From: Phycisphaerales bacterium
GTDB lineage: Bacteria > Planctomycetota > Phycisphaerae > UBA1845 > Fen-1342
Reading direction: 5' to 3'
Assembly (NCBI GenBank): GCA_003162245.1
Contig: PMMM01000165.1
Location: 1-35,028, forward strand
Length of the DNA stretch: 35,028 nucleotides
The notes beneath the pieces were generated by a model. That model had not been told where the DNA came from and did no database searches. It saw only the letters and a list, made by a program, of their open reading frames with translations. Of the stretch, positions 4,196-27,509 are shown piece by piece; position 1 is the first letter of the stretch, and each line of letters starts with the position of its first letter. A program made the position numbers and the translations under genes.

Positions 4196-5347
4196 CTAGT
4201 GTAGCGCGTGCAGGTGCGGGACGCCGTACATGTCGATCGCGATCGTTTGGCCGGCGAGGCGGATGGTCGTTTCGGAGACGTAGCCCAGAATCCCGAAGAC
4301 CAGTGCGAGGACCACGGCGGCGATGCCGATGCGGACGGCCCACTTACGGCGGCTGGGACGCCGGCCCGGTCCGCGTTCAAGAAACGGCCAGGCGAACAGC
4401 AGCAGAAACGGTACGCCGGAGACGAGGATGCCGAGCGGCTTGCCCCAGGAGCCGGAGAAGTACTTGAGCAACTGGTAGGTGGGGAGGAAGTACCACTCGG
4501 GCTTGATGCCCTCGGGCGTGTTCAGCGGGTCGGCGGGCGCTCCGATCTCCCAGGGGGAGGTAACGGCCAGCGTGAAGAGCGCCGCCATGCAGACCACGGC
4601 GACGCCGGCCTCTTTGGCCATGTGCACCGGCCAGAACGGGACGCCGCTTTCGGGCGGGTAGGGTTTTTCGCGGCCGACATCTTCGAGCGTGGCGAGGTTG
4701 TGGACGCGCATCAGGACGAGGTGCAGCGTGACGAGGGTAATCAGCACCCAGGGCAGCACGGTCACGTGGACGAGGAAGAAGCGCGACAGGGCTTCTTGCC
4801 CGACGCTGGGGCCGCCGAGCAGGATTTCCCGCATTTGCTCGCCGACGAGCGGGACGGCGCCGGTGACCTCGGTGCCGACGGTCGTGGCCCAGTAGGAGAG
4901 CTGGTTCCAGGGCAGCAGATAGCCGGTGAAGCCGAAGACCATCGTGGCCATCAGGAGGCCGGCGCCGATCAGCCAGGTGAACTCGCGTGGCTTCTTGAAC
5001 GAGCCCATGAAGTAGGTGCGGGCCATGTGCAGGACGACCGCCAGCATCATGAAGGTGGCGCCCCAGGCGTGGAGCTGACGGATCAGCCAGCCGAAGGGGA
5101 CGACGCCGGTGATGTACTGGATGGACTCGTGGGCTTCCTTGAGCGTGGGGCGGTAGTACAGCAGCAGCAGGATGCCGGTGACGAACTGGCTCAGGAAGGT
5201 GAGCAGCGCGAGGCTGCCGAGGACGTGGGCCCAGCCGGTCTGCGGCGGAAGGCGTTTGTACAGTTGTTTATGGAGGAAGTCGCGCACTATGAGATAGCGC
5301 AGGCGCGTGTCGAGGTAAAGCTGCCAGCGCTTGGGTTCAGCGGCCAC
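4196..5347 (-). CDS. Cytochrome b subunit of a bc-type quinol oxidoreductase
   Basis: A 383-residue membrane protein combining the cytochrome b6-like N-terminal part with the subunit IV-like C-terminal part. Heme ligands are H93 and H107 on one helix and H194 and H209 on the next; the 15-residue spacing in the second pair is the b6 type. The quinol-site motif PEWYFLPTY is at 283-291. About eight membrane helices are visible. The GTG start at 5347 has a GGGAG site eight bases upstream. It follows the cytochrome c/Rieske fusion gene by 15 bases, so the two form an operon. The complex should oxidise quinol at the outer side of the membrane and pass electrons to the Rieske centre. No c1 or f gene is present nearby. 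Confidence 0.93.
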   Translation of the reverse strand: MAAEPKRWQLYLDTRLRYLIVRDFLHKQLYKRLPPQTGWAHVLGSLALLTFLSQFVTGILLLLYYRPTLKEAHESIQYITGVVPFGWLIRQLHAWGATFMMLAVVLHMARTYFMGSFKKPREFTWLIGAGLLMATMVFGFTGYLLPWNQLSYWATTVGTEVTGAVPLVGEQMREILLGGPSVGQEALSRFFLVHVTVLPWVLITLVTLHLVLMRVHNLATLEDVGREKPYPPESGVPFWPVHMAKEAGVAVVCMAALFTLAVTSPWEIGAPADPLNTPEGIKPEWYFLPTYQLLKYFSGSWGKPLGILVSGVPFLLLFAWPFLERGPGRRPSRRKWAVRIGIAAVVLALVFGILGYVSETTIRLAGQTIAIDMYGVPHLHALH

Positions 5348-5362
5348 GGCGCGATCTCCCGA

Positions 5363-7291
5363 TCAACTCTTTTGGGCTCCGGTTACGACGACCTCGCCCT
5401 GGATCTCCGTCACGGTGTACTCGGGCAGGGCCTTGGGCGGCGGGCCGGAGATGACCTGTCCTGCCGCACCGAAAACGGCGCCGTGACAGGGACACGCGAA
5501 CTCATGGGTCGCCTCGTTCCAGTGCACGATGCAGCCCAAATGCGTGCACACGAGCGAGAAGCCGCGGAAGCCGCGGTCGGTGCGGATGACGGCCGCGGGT
5601 TGCCCGGCCACGGCCAGCCTTCTTTCTTCCCAGAGCTTCCAGCCTTCCTCTTTGCCGGCGCTGACGCGTTCGGAGGCTCCGCCGCGTTTGCGGGCCGGCA
5701 GGATATAGACGGCCGCGGGCCAGAACAGTCCGAGCATCGCCCCGGCGCCCATGACCCGCAGCGTCATGTCGAGCAACCGGCGGCGCGCCGGCGAGAAAGC
5801 GGCTTCCGCGGGCGGGGCCGCCGGCTGGCCGGGTTCCCGGACATACGCTTGCTTGAGCAGCAGGTACTTTCGATACATGAGGATGAAGAACAGAGCCGCG
5901 AACGCCCACACCGGGATGAGCGACCGGTTGCGCCACGTCAGCCCGGTCTGCTTGTGGTCGAGGCTGGCGTTGACGTCGCCGCAGATCGCTTGGAGCTTCT
6001 CCACGCGCTTCAGGATTTCCGGCTGGTTGAAGGTGTGCATGAAGGCGTAGAGCGCGACGACCTCGGTCTTCGCGTCCTCAGCCCGCACGGCCTCGTCGCG
6101 CACCAGCAGTACGCCGTGGGACATGCGGGCGACGCGGTCGGCCGTCTCCGCGTAGTCGAATTGTGCGTTGCGCAGGGCGTTGCTGAGTTCCGCGCCGCGC
6201 TCGAGGACGATGCGGTCGCTCGTGACGAAGAACTCCGCGTGCGGCCCCGGGCGGTCCGGTCCGTGACAGTAGTGACAGACGGAGTCGGGGCGGAGGGAGC
6301 CGGTCAGCGTGTCCAGGCGGGCGTCGAACGTCGACTGTAAGCGCTCGGCGTTGCCTTTGAGCTCGTCCCAGGTCTGCGTGTACGTCTGCAGCAGTGTTTC
6401 GGGGGGCGGCGCCGCGTCCTCGATCTGGTGGTTGCGCGGGTTTCCGCCTTTGCCGTGGCAGCCCGTGCAGCGGGCCATCACCGCGATGCGGCCGTGGACG
6501 CTGCTCAACACGTATTCCTCGACCTGCTGGTGGCACTTGCCGCACACGTGGCCCACCTGGGCGAAGCCGGGCGGGGCGGCGGCGTGACTGCCGTGGCACG
6601 TGGCGCAGTTCGGCGAGCCGGCGTCGCCCTTCTCCAGCAGGTTGCGCCCGTGCACGCTGTGGCGGTATTGGTCGACGATGTCGCCGGGAAGGTCGAAGGC
6701 CGACATCAGCGCGCGGTCCGCGTGGCAATGCCCACACGTGGCCGGGACGTTCGAAAAGTGCGTGCGGCTGCGTGTGTCGGCCTTAGACAGGATGTCGTGG
6801 ATTCCGTGGCAGTCGATACACACGGCGACGCGGTCGTCGCCGTGCAGCTTCAGCCGCTTCCCGTGGCCGCTGAGCCAGTAGGCTCGCAACTGGTCGGTGC
6901 GGAGGCCGTAAGGGTTCATCTTCTCGACGTCTTCGTGGCAGGTGCCGCAAAGCTCGGGCACGGTCACCCGCGCGGGCTTGCCGCGGAAGGCGGCGCCATG
7001 GTCGAACGGGGCCGGTTGCGTGTCGGCGGCGCGGCTCAGCAGGAGGGCCTGGTTCTGCTCCGCGGTCAGCTCATACACGTCCTGCCCGCCGTGGCATTGC
7101 GGACAGTGGACGGCCTCGCGATGCACGGAGCCGTGGAACTGTTCGGCCTGCGTGGGATGGCAGTCCGGGCAGGCGACGGTGCGGGGCTGTCCCAGCGCGG
7201 GCGCGCCGGCCGCGGCAGTCAGGAGGGCGGCCAGTGCACCGATGCGTACGCCACAGCCTATGCGAGCGCGACTGATTCGACTTGCGGTCAT
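5363..7291 (-). CDS. Nine-heme cytochrome c fused to a Rieske iron-sulfur protein
   Basis: A 642-residue exported protein. After an N-terminal signal sequence (to about residue 35), nine CxxCH heme sites occur at 41, 63, 115, 158, 186, 229, 250, 275 and 339. A helical region (350-440) leads to a membrane helix at about 458-475. A second helix at about 506-531, preceded by PARRR, resembles the N-terminus of an ordinary Rieske protein. The Rieske boxes are intact: CTHLGC at 582-587 and CPCHG at 600-604, giving ligands C582, H584, C600 and H603. The gene precedes cytochrome b in an operon. The heme domain probably replaces cytochrome c1/f as electron acceptor of the Rieske centre. Such a single-chain fusion is unusual. 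Each part is certain; the electron route is inferred. Confidence 0.93.
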   Translation of the reverse strand: MTASRISRARIGCGVRIGALAALLTAAAGAPALGQPRTVACPDCHPTQAEQFHGSVHREAVHCPQCHGGQDVYELTAEQNQALLLSRAADTQPAPFDHGAAFRGKPARVTVPELCGTCHEDVEKMNPYGLRTDQLRAYWLSGHGKRLKLHGDDRVAVCIDCHGIHDILSKADTRSRTHFSNVPATCGHCHADRALMSAFDLPGDIVDQYRHSVHGRNLLEKGDAGSPNCATCHGSHAAAPPGFAQVGHVCGKCHQQVEEYVLSSVHGRIAVMARCTGCHGKGGNPRNHQIEDAAPPPETLLQTYTQTWDELKGNAERLQSTFDARLDTLTGSLRPDSVCHYCHGPDRPGPHAEFFVTSDRIVLERGAELSNALRNAQFDYAETADRVARMSHGVLLVRDEAVRAEDAKTEVVALYAFMHTFNQPEILKRVEKLQAICGDVNASLDHKQTGLTWRNRSLIPVWAFAALFFILMYRKYLLLKQAYVREPGQPAAPPAEAAFSPARRRLLDMTLRVMGAGAMLGLFWPAAVYILPARKRGGASERVSAGKEEGWKLWEERRLAVAGQPAAVIRTDRGFRGFSLVCTHLGCIVHWNEATHEFACPCHGAVFGAAGQVISGPPPKALPEYTVTEIQGEVVVTGAQKS

Positions 7292-9026: not shown

Positions 9027-10763
9027 CTACTCGGCGCCGCCGGGGGTGGCGGGGCCGGGGATTTCGACGGCGCGGACGGAGTCGATGAGGGTGCCGTCGA
9101 CCCATTTGATGGCGGCGACAACTTTTTCACCGAAGTGGGGCGGGGCGGGGGGGCCGCCGCACATCTGGTCCACCTCTTTTTTGATTTCGCGGATGGGGCG
9201 GATGGGGAGCTTGGAGCCGTTGTCCTTGAGGACCTGCATGAGGTCCTCGCGCCTCGGATTGATCGCGATGCCGCGCTCGGTGACGACCACGTCGATCAGC
9301 TCGCCGGGGCCGCAGAGGGTCGTGACCTTGTCCACGATGACGGGGATGCGGTCGCGGACGGACGGGATCGGGAGGATCACGCAGGGGCTCGCGAGGCAGT
9401 TTTGCCAGCCGCCGATGCCGTGCAGCAGCCGGCCGTCGGAGTGCGTGACGACGTTGGCGTTGAAGTCCACGTCGACCTCGGTCGCGCCGAGGACGGCGGC
9501 GTCGACGAAGGTGGCGAAGTGGCCCTTGCCGTGCCAGTTGTAGCTGGTGAACGGGCTGGTCATGACGTGGTGCGGGTTATCACGCATGGACGTGACGCCG
9601 TGGAGGTCGAAAGTCTGGCCGTCGAGGATGTAGTCGGTGAGGCCGTCGTTGAGCATCTCGACGAGGTATTTGGTGCTGCCGCCACGGATGAAGCGGGCCT
9701 TGATGCCCTTGGCCCGCATGTAGTCGCGGAGGTAGATGGCGAAGCCGAGGGCGGTGCCGCCGGCGCCGGCCTGGAAAGAGAAGCCGTCGCGCATGATGCC
9801 GGCGTCGCGGACGAACTGGGCGGCCATTTCGGCGATCATGAGGCGGTCGGGGCTTTTGGTCAGCTCGGTGGTGCCGGAGACGATTTTACTGGGGTCGCCG
9901 ATGACGTCGAGGACGACGACCTGATCGACGTTGTTGCCCTGGATTTGCCAGGGGACGCAGGGGAAGGGGACGAGGTTGTCTGTCACCAGGATCGTGTGGT
10001 CGGCGTAGAGCGAATCGACGAGGCCGAAGCCGAGGCCGCCGCAGGCGGACGGGCCGTTCACGCCGTTGGCGTTGCCGAAGGGGTCGCAGGTGGGGGCGGC
10101 GAGGACGGCGATGTCGATGTGGATTTCGTTGTCCTGGACAGCCTGCCAGCGGCCGCCGTGGGAGCGGAGGACGCCGAGGCCGCGCATTTTGCCGGTGGAA
10201 CAGTAGTCGCCGATGGGGCCGTTCATGGAGCCTTCGACGTGGTGGATGACGCCGGACTCGATGAGCGGGATGAGCGGGGCGTGGCAGGGGAAGCAGGCGG
10301 AAGGGAACCAGATGAGGTCTTTGACGCCGAGCTCGGCGGCGGCCTGGAAGAGCGAAACGCCGATCTTGTCGCCGTTGCGGAAGTGGTGGTGCGAGCTGAT
10401 GCGCATGCCGTCGCGGAGGCCGGCCTTTTTGAGGGCGGTTTTGAGGGCCTCGACGGGGGTGGAGCAGGCGGCGGCGCGGGCGGGGAGGAGTGCGCTCGGT
10501 GCGAGGGCGGGCGCGGTGGTGGCGCCGTGCGTGGTTGACCCTCCCCCGGCCCCTCCCTGAGAGGGAGGGGGGTTGGGCATGAACGCCACGACTTTGTTGC
10601 CGTCGCGGGGGTAGTCGTTCGAGGAGCGGACCGGCGGCGCGGCCTTGCGGCCGGTGGGCGTGTACTTGCCGACGCCGGCGAAGGGGACCTGCGGTTGGCC
10701 GTTGACGATGGTCGGGACCAGGCGGCCGGCGGCATTTTTGACGAGCTCAGCGTTCTTCGACAT
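9027..10763 (-). CDS. citF: Citrate lyase alpha subunit homologue (citrate CoA-transferase)
   Basis: A 578-residue homologue of CitF. In citrate lyase this subunit transfers the acyl carrier thioester from acetate to citrate. Family blocks are clear: GLRDGMRISSHHHFRNGD, CFPCHAPLIPLIESGV, RSHGGRWQAVQ, DPFGNANGVNG, DGFSFQAGAGGTALGF, NVVTHSDGRLLHGIGG and VVVTERGIAINPRREDL. The start is ATG 10763 with GAGG nine bases upstream; the GTG at 10778 would overlap that site. The chain is longer than the usual 500-520 residues because of a Pro/Gly/Ala-rich insert near residues 62-102, part of which is encoded by a palindromic repeat. No citE, citD or carrier-loading genes are within the window, so it may work in a different CoA-transfer reaction. 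Confidence 0.88.
   Translation of the reverse strand: MSKNAELVKNAAGRLVPTIVNGQPQVPFAGVGKYTPTGRKAAPPVRSSNDYPRDGNKVVAFMPNPPPSQGGAGGGSTTHGATTAPALAPSALLPARAAACSTPVEALKTALKKAGLRDGMRISSHHHFRNGDKIGVSLFQAAAELGVKDLIWFPSACFPCHAPLIPLIESGVIHHVEGSMNGPIGDYCSTGKMRGLGVLRSHGGRWQAVQDNEIHIDIAVLAAPTCDPFGNANGVNGPSACGGLGFGLVDSLYADHTILVTDNLVPFPCVPWQIQGNNVDQVVVLDVIGDPSKIVSGTTELTKSPDRLMIAEMAAQFVRDAGIMRDGFSFQAGAGGTALGFAIYLRDYMRAKGIKARFIRGGSTKYLVEMLNDGLTDYILDGQTFDLHGVTSMRDNPHHVMTSPFTSYNWHGKGHFATFVDAAVLGATEVDVDFNANVVTHSDGRLLHGIGGWQNCLASPCVILPIPSVRDRIPVIVDKVTTLCGPGELIDVVVTERGIAINPRREDLMQVLKDNGSKLPIRPIREIKKEVDQMCGGPPAPPHFGEKVVAAIKWVDGTLIDSVRAVEIPGPATPGGAE
10537..10578. repeat. Palindromic repeat inserted in frame within citF
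   Basis: The block GACCCTCCCCC...GAGGGAGGGGGG is a close relative of the intergenic element at 8971-9007. On the coding strand it reads as NPPPSQGGAGGGS without disturbing the frame. It sits between the variable N-terminal leader and the conserved CoA-transferase core. Confidence 0.75.
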
Positions 10764-10878
10764 CGACGAGTTCCTCACGACCTGTCAGTCGTCAGCCCTC
10801 AGCTTTCAGCCAAGCTGGCCGGCTGCGTTGGCAATAATAAGCGACAGAGGACCGCGCAGGCAGTGCGCCGGACCGACC
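10764..10878. other. Intergenic spacer with a CAGTCGTCAGCCCTCAG-type repeat
   Basis: Bases 10783-10812 carry TCAGTCGTCAGCCCTCAGCT, a short direct-repeat motif related in style to 418-448. No gene is visible. The citF ribosome binding site is at the left edge. Confidence 0.4.
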
Positions 10879-18519: not shown

Positions 18520-19986
18520 ATGCGGCCTACGGTCCGATTCCTGAGCGAGCAACTGGTCCAGCAGATCATCGCCGAAGCGCGGTCGGTCCTCTGCCAGCTC
18601 GGCGTGGAGATTCACAACCCAGGTATTCTCACACTGCTCGGCGACCACGGGGCCCGCGTCGACCCCGCGAAGAACCGCGTTACGTTCACCGACGACATCA
18701 TCGACGGGGCGCTGCGGACGGCGCCGCACTCCGTCAAGCTCTACGACGTGCTCGGCCGTCCGACGCACGACCTCGCCGGCGACAACGTCTACTTCACGCC
18801 CGGCTCCGCGGCCATCAACATCCTAGATACCGCGACCGGCACGACGCGCCGGCCGACCGCCGCCGACTACGTCCGCTACGCGCAGCTCGTCAGCCAGCTC
18901 GACCACATCGCCTCGCAGAGCACGGCCCTGGTTCCGGCCGACGTGCCGCAGAACATCGCCGACAGCTTCCGGCTGTTCCTGAGCCTGATGTACTGCCGCA
19001 AGCCGGTCGTCACCGGCGCGTTCACCGTCGCTTCGTTCAACCTCATGAAGGACCTGCAAGTCGCGGTCCGCGGCGGCGAGAGCGAGCTGAAAGCCAAGCC
19101 GCTGACGGTGTTCTCGTGCTGCCCGACCGCGCCGCTCAAGTGGAGCGACGTGACTTCGCAGAACGTCGTGGACTGTGCGAAGTACTCGATTCCGGTCGAG
19201 TTCATCTCGATGCCGCTGTCCGGCTTCGTCGCGCCCGTCACGCTGGTCGGCTCGCTGGTCCAGCACACCGCCGAGACGCTTAGCGGCATTGTTATCAGCC
19301 AGCTCACGAGCCCGGGGGCGCCGATGCTCTATGGCGGCTCGCCGGCGGTCTTCGACGTGCGCTACGAGACGACGCCGATGGGGGCGGTCGAGACGATGAT
19401 GATCGACTGCGCGTACAGCGAGATCGGCAAGCACCTGGGACTGCCGACGCAGGCGTACATCGGCCTGAGCGACGGCAAGCAGTTCGACGCCCAAGATGGC
19501 CTGGAAACGTCGATGGGCGCGACGCTCGCGGCCCTCGCCGGCATCAACAACATCTCCGGTCCCGGCATGTTGGATTTCGAAAGCTGCCTGTGCCTGGAGA
19601 AGCTGGTGCTCGACAACGAGATCTGCGGGATGACGCTGCGCCTGATCGCCGGCATCGAGCCCAAGGAGGACTTCCCGGCGTTGCCGCGTTTCGAGGAGTT
19701 GCTGGCGAGCAAGCACTTGCTCATCTCGCCGCACACGCGCCGACATCTGAAGACGGAGCATTACATGCCCGGCCGCGTGATCGACCGGGCGAACCGGGCG
19801 CGCTGGCTCGAGGAGGGCGGCCTGAGCCTGCACGAGCGCGCCCGCCGCGAGGTAGACCGGCTGCTTACTGTTTACCAACCGCCCGAGCTGCCCGACCGCC
19901 TCCGGACGGACCTGACGAAGCTCATGGAGCGCGAAGCCCGGCGGTATGGTCTGGACCGTCTGCCGGACACCGGCCCGCGCGCGTAG
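18520..19986 (+). CDS. MttB-family methyltransferase without pyrrolysine
   Basis: A 488-residue member of the trimethylamine methyltransferase superfamily (MttB, COG5598). Family blocks include FTPGSAAINILDTATG, GAFTVASFNLMKDLQ, PLSGFVAPVTLVGSLVQHTAE, LTSPGAPMLYGG and GLPTQAYIGLSDGKQFDAQD. The frame has no in-frame amber codon, so it is a non-pyrrolysine member; characterised ones demethylate glycine betaine or related quaternary amines and pass the methyl group to a corrinoid protein. No corrinoid protein gene lies in the window. The ATG has AGGAG eight bases upstream. It follows the TMTC-like gene after 117 bases. Confidence 0.88.
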   Translation: MRPTVRFLSEQLVQQIIAEARSVLCQLGVEIHNPGILTLLGDHGARVDPAKNRVTFTDDIIDGALRTAPHSVKLYDVLGRPTHDLAGDNVYFTPGSAAINILDTATGTTRRPTAADYVRYAQLVSQLDHIASQSTALVPADVPQNIADSFRLFLSLMYCRKPVVTGAFTVASFNLMKDLQVAVRGGESELKAKPLTVFSCCPTAPLKWSDVTSQNVVDCAKYSIPVEFISMPLSGFVAPVTLVGSLVQHTAETLSGIVISQLTSPGAPMLYGGSPAVFDVRYETTPMGAVETMMIDCAYSEIGKHLGLPTQAYIGLSDGKQFDAQDGLETSMGATLAALAGINNISGPGMLDFESCLCLEKLVLDNEICGMTLRLIAGIEPKEDFPALPRFEELLASKHLLISPHTRRHLKTEHYMPGRVIDRANRARWLEEGGLSLHERARREVDRLLTVYQPPELPDRLRTDLTKLMEREARRYGLDRLPDTGPRA

Positions 19987-25436: not shown

Positions 25437-26185
25437 AGCAGAATCCGTAGCAGGACGACAACGGACACGAAGAGCACAGCGGCCAACGTCGCGCGCGCGG
25501 GCGGGTCGTGAGCGTGGCTGACCGGCCATTGGCCGGCATAGCCGCGGGCGGCCATCGCGTCCGCGACGCGCTCCGCCCGGCCGTGCGCCCGCAAGGCCAG
25601 TGCGCCGAGCAGGTTGGTCGCCGAGCGAAAGGGAGGACGGCGGCGGCCGATCGTTCGGGCGGCGCGGGCGTCCCATAGACGATGCAGCTCGGGCCGCAGC
25701 ACGTGCAGGTAGCGCAGCATGAAGGCGAGGACGCCGACGAAGAGTGCCGGCAGGCCGAGTCGCCGCAAGCCGGCGATCAGTTCCGCTTCGGGGGTTGTGA
25801 CCCAGACCAGTGCCAACACGCCCACGCAGAGCGCGGCACAGGTGGCGAGGCGCTGGGCCGCGTACAGGCCCTCCCGGGTGACCTCTAGCGGTCCGAGCTG
25901 CCACAGCACCGTACCCTCTTTGAAGAACGGCAACAGGACCACCAGCATCGCGATGGCGGGCAAGGCGGTCGCGAAGCGGCGGAGGCATTGGCCGACGCTG
26001 CGTCGCTGCGAGACCAGTAGCGCAGCGAGCAGAGCGGCATAGGTCGCGACCAGGGGCAGGTCTGTGCGGCGGATGGTCACGACGCAGATCGCCCAGCTCA
26101 GCGCACACACGATCTTGACCCGGGCATCGAGCTGTTCGAGGAGGGTCAGCGGCGCGGCTGTGCGAGTAAGGGACTTCTCATGCAT
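25433..26185 (-). CDS. cbiQ: ECF transporter transmembrane subunit CbiQ
   Basis: A 250-residue membrane protein, the coupling (T) subunit between the ATPase and CbiM. Helices are visible near VKIVCALSWAICVVTIRRTD, LPAIAMLVVLLPFF, CAALCVGVLALVWVTTPE and at the C-terminus. The two cytoplasmic Ala-Arg-Gly-type coupling motifs are represented by DARAARTIG and AMAARGYAG. The start is ATG 26185, with AGGAGG nine bases upstream; it overlaps the end of cbiM by eight bases. Order and overlaps make one operon with cbiM and cbiO. Confidence 0.92.
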   Translation of the reverse strand: MHEKSLTRTAAPLTLLEQLDARVKIVCALSWAICVVTIRRTDLPLVATYAALLAALLVSQRRSVGQCLRRFATALPAIAMLVVLLPFFKEGTVLWQLGPLEVTREGLYAAQRLATCAALCVGVLALVWVTTPEAELIAGLRRLGLPALFVGVLAFMLRYLHVLRPELHRLWDARAARTIGRRRPPFRSATNLLGALALRAHGRAERVADAMAARGYAGQWPVSHAHDPPARATLAAVLFVSVVVLLRILL

Positions 26186-27509
26186 GCGTCGGTCCTCCTG
26201 ACGCGTGCGCTGCGGCACAGGCGGAGGGGGCGATGGGCCGGACGAGCGCGCGACCGGCAACGAACGCCAGCACGAACATGGCGAGCGTGCCGATCGCGCC
26301 GGCCAGGCTGGTGCTGAGCAGACCCGTCAGTCCGGGGACGGTGTAGTCCGGCAGCAGGGCGAACCGCGATTTTGCGGCACCCGCCGCTGGCGTGGCTGCC
26401 GCGGGGAAGACCAATTCCAGTTCGCGGCCGGCGCGCGCGACGCGGAGGTGGACTGGCTGGCCGGGCGGAAGAGCGAAGCGATTCTCCGCTGGTGCGAAGC
26501 CGAGGGCTTGGGCCGCGGCAGCGAGGTCGGTGACGGGGGTCGACTCGATTCGCTCGATCACGTCGCCCGGCATGAGCGGACTCGCCTGCTGTTCGTAGCG
26601 CTGGGTCGCGGTCACACGGCCGTCGTGGAGCGCCAAGCGCACGCCGAGGGGGTAGGCCGAGAACGCCTCGACGATTCCGTCTGCGGCCAGAGCGGGTTCT
26701 TCATATAGGAAGCCCTTTTGAAAGCCGACGGACTCCAGGCCGTCCGGGAAATCCCACAGTCTTGGGAGCAAAGAGAGTCCTGTCGCCACGACGAGGGAGG
26801 CGGCCAGGCCGACGATTGCGGCGAGGCGTCCCACGCGCCGGCTTGTTCCCGCCGGACGGTCGTAGAGCAGATCAGGGCGCGTGCGGACGACGAAGGCGAC
26901 GACGCCGGCCGTGATGAGCGCCTCGCCGACGCCGATGACCATGTGGGTAAGCACCATGGCCGGCAGGGCCCGGGCGAGCGTGACCGTGCCGGAGACGGCC
27001 AGTTGCAGGCTGACGAACACGCTGGCCAGCGGCACGGAAAGCCAGGCGGCGAAGAAGCTCGCGGCGACGACGCGGGCCGGTTTGTGGAACGCCGGGCCGA
27101 CGAAGACGCGGTAGACGAAGTAGGCCAGACAGGTGCCGACGATGCCCATGTTGAAGATGTTGGGGCCAAGTGCGGTGAGGCCGCCGTCGCCGAGCAGGGC
27201 CTGAAACAGAATCACGGCCGCCATGACGACCGTCGCGGCCCAGGGGCCGAGCAGGATGGCGGCGAGGGTCCCGCCGAGGAGGTGCCCCGTCGTACCGGAG
27301 GAGATAGGGAAGTTGACCATCTGGCCGGCGAAGACGAACGCCGCCATGAGGCCCATCAGGGGTACGAGGCGCTGGTCGTGAGAGCGCGCGAGTGCGGCAC
27401 ACGCCCGTCCGATGAGTAGCACGACGACCAGGCCGAAGGTGAGGTTGACCGACAGGCTGAAGAGGCCGTCGGGCGCGTGCATGGCGAGCAATAAGAGGAC
27501 GGACGGCAT
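26178..27509 (-). CDS. cbiM: CbiM-type nickel/cobalt substrate subunit with PDZ-like insertion
   Basis: A 443-residue membrane protein that selects the metal. Residues 10-215 are the CbiM/NikM core, with MHAPDGLFS at 10-18 and SGTTGHLLGG at 71-80. In known homologues the mature N-terminal Met-His binds Ni or Co, so the first nine residues (MPSVLLLLA) may be a short cleaved leader; GGAG lies six bases before ATG 27509, while ATG 27482 has no such site. A PDGLE module (FPDGLES at 254) and a C-terminal PDYTVPGL plus helix (387-420) correspond to the CbiN-like tail of fused homologues. Between them a PDZ-like domain (about 286-368, with MPGDVIERIESTPV) is inserted, which is unusual. A NikR-like operator precedes the gene. 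Confidence 0.9.
   Translation of the reverse strand: MPSVLLLLAMHAPDGLFSLSVNLTFGLVVVLLIGRACAALARSHDQRLVPLMGLMAAFVFAGQMVNFPISSGTTGHLLGGTLAAILLGPWAATVVMAAVILFQALLGDGGLTALGPNIFNMGIVGTCLAYFVYRVFVGPAFHKPARVVAASFFAAWLSVPLASVFVSLQLAVSGTVTLARALPAMVLTHMVIGVGEALITAGVVAFVVRTRPDLLYDRPAGTSRRVGRLAAIVGLAASLVVATGLSLLPRLWDFPDGLESVGFQKGFLYEEPALAADGIVEAFSAYPLGVRLALHDGRVTATQRYEQQASPLMPGDVIERIESTPVTDLAAAAQALGFAPAENRFALPPGQPVHLRVARAGRELELVFPAAATPAAGAAKSRFALLPDYTVPGLTGLLSTSLAGAIGTLAMFVLAFVAGRALVRPIAPSACAAAHASGGPTHA

Follow-up and report, generated by a model that had tools for sequence, protein, structure and literature searches.

A nonaheme cytochrome c and a Rieske protein joined in one chain beside cytochrome b in a Phycisphaerales bacterium

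What role can be played by a single polypeptide that carries nine c-type heme motifs and a complete Rieske domain, and whose gene adjoins that of cytochrome b? Such a protein is encoded on contig PMMM01000165.1 of a Phycisphaerales bacterium (assembly GCA_003162245.1); the whole stretch of 35,028 nucleotides that was analysed is referred to here as the window. We consider it likely that the fused protein forms that half of a quinol-oxidising Rieske/cytochrome b complex through which electrons leave, with the nonaheme part acting as the Rieske acceptor.

The gene at 5363..7291 is a single intact open reading frame of 642 codons on the minus strand, with its ATG at 7291 and its stop at 5363. The protein starts with a signal peptide, after which come nine CxxCH motifs; these are followed by a membrane helix, a twin-arginine motif and a second helix, and a complete Rieske domain comes last. 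By hydropathy, the signal-peptide-like N-terminus (about residues 1–35, 7187..7291) has hydrophobic residues at 16–34, followed by an AxA-like site. The CxxCH motifs, each invariant among 35 homologues, occupy residues 41–45 (7157..7171), 63–67 (7091..7105), 115–119 (6935..6949), 158–162 (6806..6820), 186–190 (6722..6736), 229–233 (6593..6607), 250–254 (6530..6544), 275–279 (6455..6469) and 339–343 (6263..6277). This count of nine compares with a mean of 0.045 and a maximum of 3 in 20,000 shuffles of the same protein, and the Pfam matches of the heme part are to multiheme families only. Helix 1 (about residues 458–483, 5843..5920) corresponds to the C-terminal anchor of the heme protein in all homologues in which the two parts are separate, and helix 2 (about residues 508–532, 5696..5770), the Rieske anchor, to the N-terminal anchor of the split Rieske proteins. 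Both were located by hydropathy, and in the fused chain they would form a hairpin through the membrane. Between them lies the twin-arginine pair R503-R504 (5780..5785). The Rieske domain (Pfam Rieske, E = 1.9e-10) has both boxes, CTHLGC (582–587, 5531..5548) and CPCHG (600–604, 5480..5494), conserved in the 35 homologues, and the latter is followed by Ala-Val-Phe instead of Ser-x-Tyr. Reading frame, shuffles, hydropathy and Pfam thus bear out the preliminary description, which had reported nine CxxCH sites, two helices and two Rieske boxes in one 642-codon frame. A profile search of the heme part against solved structures gave a sole, weak match, a 278-residue cytochrome c (28pb, E = 2e-5), and a single-sequence search found no solved relative of it. 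AlphaFold2, run on the single sequence of the fused protein, gave a mean pLDDT of 36, and the model was discarded.

Cytochrome b (383 residues, 4196..5347, minus strand; Pfam E = 1.3e-51) is encoded 15 bp downstream as a single chain that covers both the b6 part and the subunit IV part. Its four heme ligands, H93/H107 and H194/H209, and the PEWY motif (P283-Y286) are conserved in all complete homologues, and the two helix-D histidines are spaced by 14 residues, as in b6. The c_n-binding cysteine is absent: each of the 34 cytochromes b compared has Val, Ile or Thr at that position. Beside that position, H41 (about 5225-5227) is invariant in 34/34; for anammox complexes an extra b heme at the dimer interface has been proposed, with an N-terminal histidine of the b subunit as its ligand (PMC12954380). 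Neither a c1-like nor a cytochrome f gene lies beside the pair, as had been stated before, and there is no NAD(P) oxidoreductase gene at this locus. Since the neighbours encode a PilZ protein, a DUF1579 protein and a ResA-like thioredoxin, the fused gene and cytochrome b stand alone as a two-gene unit. Elsewhere the window encodes the citrate lyase alpha subunit CitF (9030-10778, minus strand, Pfam E = 2e-126), a trimethylamine methyltransferase (MTTB) family protein (18520-19983, plus strand, in a frame open for 488 codons) and a cobalt-uptake CbiM-like protein (26181-27509).

When the architecture was searched for in relatives, the same fusion was found in four other genomes (G310, G305, G313 and G393; 52–57% identity) and an independent one in two. 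The fused frame is free of stops in all four, which excludes an assembly joint as well as the frameshift against which the preliminary description had guarded. Within the family the complex is present in four of 27 genomes, that of the window included, and is fused in each of them. The 114 genomes of the order add one more member of the window's fused clade, from another family (56% identity), and the two further fused proteins, from a third family. Sampling 294 genomes of the phylum and 397 genomes of the class revealed no fused member outside the order.

At 28 loci, on the other hand, the heme and Rieske parts have a gene each; the heme gene comes first, the Rieske gene adjoins it and cytochrome b follows, except that one contig ends before cytochrome b. 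Within the order the spacing of these genes ranges from an 8-nt overlap to 36 nt, and one outgroup has 109 nt. Families of the phylum that are more distantly related may instead have the Rieske gene first, then that of a b6-type cytochrome and then that of the heme protein. Because the split relatives have the same parts, we are dealing with a lineage-specific fusion within a conserved Rieske/cytochrome b complex whose cytochrome c1 or f is replaced by a membrane-anchored nonaheme cytochrome. Of what had been proposed, the two-gene complex with a built-in multiheme part therefore stands for the window, whereas fusion is not general to the complex; the expectation that close relatives would lack separate genes failed, and the fusion described here is unaffected by it.

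On a maximum-likelihood tree built from the three proteins joined together (32 rows), two changes between the split and fused states are required. A single origin of all fusions was rejected, the tree that places them in one clade having a p-AU of 3.2e-6. Joining arose at least twice, independently: the fused state is derived and lineage-specific in one clade, and the second case is separate from it. Stop readthrough in the split relatives was rejected as well, because the pairs that are in frame with only the stop and a few codons between them (11/28) make up about the one-third that chance would give and each of the three stop codons is used.

A scan of named genomes returned only four distant multiheme proteins, from Nitrospirota and similar records, with neither Rieske nor cytochrome b beside them. 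Two records, Thermodesulfovibrio and BMS3Bbin08 (L003:5536-11754 and L005:1767-7885), encode a six-CxxCH membrane cytochrome that is related to one portion of the heme domain (~33% identity); a 3-CxxCH protein and a cytochrome of 17 to 18 hemes come after it. Another genome of the order has a Rieske/cytochrome b pair among at least six cytochrome genes of 5–13 hemes (L070, G322:C1:2400000-2419900), a multiheme cluster different from and much larger than the complex of the window. A further family in the phylum sample (L071) has a Rieske gene followed by cytochrome b fused to a diheme cytochrome c, an arrangement described for Kuenenia (PMC12954380); its presence in the sample would make Planctomycetota the likely phylum.

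Each of the 35 heme proteins compared has exactly nine CxxCH motifs. Nine further histidines (57, 98, 143, 165, 214, 236, 266, 288 and 419) are conserved, eight of them in 35/35 and H98 in 34/35, so that all-bis-His ligation is the simplest reading; Met125 and Met196 are also invariant. The nonaheme part would then be an all-bis-His wire, and two protein ligands on every heme would point to electron transfer rather than to an open catalytic site. In model Rieske proteins the potential drops when the Ser or Tyr near the cluster is lost. Here these potential-raising positions are Ala or Gly, and Phe, in 35/35, which suggests a low-potential, menaquinol-type cluster. A low potential is likely but not certain, since the potential of one anammox Rieske protein remains at +335 mV although it lacks the Tyr (PMC12954380).

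In the mechanism that we propose, cytochrome b would oxidise quinol, probably menaquinol, at the PEWY site, passing one electron through the two b hemes and the other to the Rieske cluster. The head of the Rieske protein would hand this second electron on to one of the hemes in the nonaheme cytochrome, which occupies the place of cytochrome c1 or f, and the nine hemes would relay electrons onward to other, probably multiheme, carriers. That heme protein, Rieske protein and cytochrome b occur together in the same order, fused and split, makes the nonaheme protein a natural candidate for the Rieske acceptor; transfer from the cluster to a heme may then be direct.

How does this complex relate to known ones? 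It shares with bc1 and b6f the two heme-His pairs and PEWY of cytochrome b and both cluster-binding boxes of the Rieske protein. It differs from them in having a nonaheme acceptor domain on the Rieske chain and in lacking the class-defining features of b6f (the c_n cysteine and cytochrome f) and of bc1 (cytochrome c1). In anammox bacteria, hexa- or octaheme cytochromes replace cytochrome f in Rieske/cytochrome b complexes (PMC12954380). The Kuenenia stuttgartiensis clusters Kuste4569-4574 and Kustd1480-1485 likewise encode a Rieske protein, a b-type cytochrome and a membrane-anchored multiheme cytochrome c, but there the hexa- or octaheme chain is separate, cytochrome b consists of a b6 and a subunit IV chain and has a c_n heme, and an NAD(P) oxidoreductase is included (PMC12954380). 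The complex of the window has in common with this type a multiheme cytochrome c in place of cytochrome f, here a nonaheme protein beside or fused to the Rieske protein at every locus compared, and has no NAD(P) module at its locus. Methanoperedens (PMC4683180) and Caldithrix (PMC5317091) also encode multiheme cytochromes c together with Rieske/cytochrome b, and these have been proposed as acceptors; they are products of separate genes with other heme numbers (pentaheme, tetraheme, octaheme), and no fusion is reported. Judged by these features, the complex is a member of the cytochrome bc superfamily and would work like the complexes with multiheme partners.

The downstream acceptor may be sought among neighbouring genes of the relatives. 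In G310, G305 and G393 the operon adjoins 7- to 9-heme cytochromes and a divergent gene for a six-CxxCH/b561-type cytochrome fusion, in G313 a nine-heme gene lies upstream, and in several split relatives the operon adjoins a tetraheme c554-like gene; these multiheme proteins are candidate acceptors. In the window genome the pair has no other multiheme gene next to it, and the only related protein found there is a nine-heme cytochrome encoded on another contig beside a nickel-iron hydrogenase. That locus (L124:5451-11521, G000:C81) encodes the large and small hydrogenase subunits and a maturation protease and, adjoining them, the cytochrome, which has 745 residues and a thrombospondin type 3 repeat. 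Alternative complex III genes (NrfD-type, and ActD with cytochrome c) adjoin a caa3-type oxidase set elsewhere in the same genome (L113, G000:C244, about 12-22 kb) and likely form with it the main aerobic chain. Given this chain, and given that no second cytochrome b was found in the genome with the present one as query, the nonaheme complex is probably an accessory quinol-oxidising branch. In the nearest relative, of the same genus and an estimated 97% complete (G294), searches found no match to the complex, COX1 or NrfD; either members of the genus differ strongly in respiratory equipment or these genes are missing from the draft.

The order of the domains bears on how the protein could be assembled. 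The motif before the Rieske helix is mostly [S/T]RRxFLD, of the Tat-substrate type, with RR invariant in 35/35, and TatC is encoded in the window genome. Cytochromes of the c type cross the membrane unfolded and receive their hemes outside. The fused chain should therefore need Sec for its heme part and Tat for its Rieske part, work that the split relatives share between two chains. Use of both Sec and Tat by one chain has been shown for the actinobacterial three-helix Rieske proteins (PMC5449189), which, like the fused protein, have an internal twin-arginine motif before the last helix; their upstream part needs Sec, as that of the fused protein should, and positive charges follow their last helix, as they do in the window's clade. 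Their upstream part consists of two plain helices, as against a signal peptide, a nonaheme domain and one helix here. Within 35 residues after helix 2 there are eight Lys/Arg in the five members of the window's clade, compared with a mean of 3.6 in the split proteins, and hydropathy showed no difference between fused and split. This excess resembles the Sec-avoidance feature of the actinobacterial proteins (PMC5449189), but is only suggestive, because it represents one evolutionary event and is absent from the second fused pair, which has 3 and 4. A course in which Sec export and attachment of nine hemes outside precede the passage of the folded Rieske domain through Tat, with the wire as its obligate intramolecular acceptor, strikes us as evenly balanced between right and wrong.

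The main competitor grants the same chemistry and denies the fusion any significance: the stop between two neighbouring genes was lost, and the product, perhaps cleaved in its linker, works exactly as two subunits. Split forms are common and many are separated only by an in-frame stop and a few codons; in G364, which lies near the second fused pair in one tree, the stop directly precedes the Rieske start, and the linkers of the fused proteins are dissimilar. The fused state has nevertheless been kept in five diverged genera and arose twice, and a neutral fusion would be expected to split again occasionally within the fused clade, where no such case was seen among its five known members. We lean against neutrality, if only slightly. 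Our own explanation has to accommodate the failure to find the complex in 23/27 genomes of the family, the congeneric one among them, which indicates that it is dispensable.

Other alternatives change the direction or the purpose of electron flow. Electrons from outside, for example from the hydrogenase by way of a multiheme cytochrome, could enter through the nine hemes and reduce quinone, and the hydrogenase beside a nine-heme cytochrome lends this some substance; however, where a Rieske/cytochrome b pair has a PEWY site it normally oxidises quinol, and the hydrogenase is unlinked to the locus, so that we regard entry of electrons by this route as unlikely. Replacement of cytochrome f by a multiheme protein, shared with Kuste4569-4574 (PMC12954380), could also indicate an anammox-type bifurcating complex for the production of NAD(P)H whose high-potential branch is the multiheme part. 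With no NAD(P) oxidoreductase gene at the locus and a one-chain cytochrome b lacking the c_n cysteine, this seems very improbable. Although the window is taken from a draft genome of 264 contigs, an assembly artefact or pseudogene is already refuted for practical purposes by six other genomes with the same fused frame, without stops and with all motifs kept.

Multiheme Rieske acceptors were proposed for early anaerobic bc complexes by Dibrova et al. (2013), as cited in PMC5317091, and such proposals have rested mostly on gene neighbourhood. In searchable open-access papers we found no report of a multiheme cytochrome-Rieske fusion, and its novelty is not certain. In a natural fusion both the partner and the 1:1 ratio are set by the chain itself, and the split relatives offer ready controls, so that the idea of a multiheme cytochrome as direct Rieske acceptor becomes directly testable. 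The fused protein also offers a test case for assembly, as one chain that should need Sec and cytochrome c maturation as well as Tat and cytoplasmic iron-sulfur assembly; if Sec does act before Tat, cofactors of two assembly routes would come together on a single chain.
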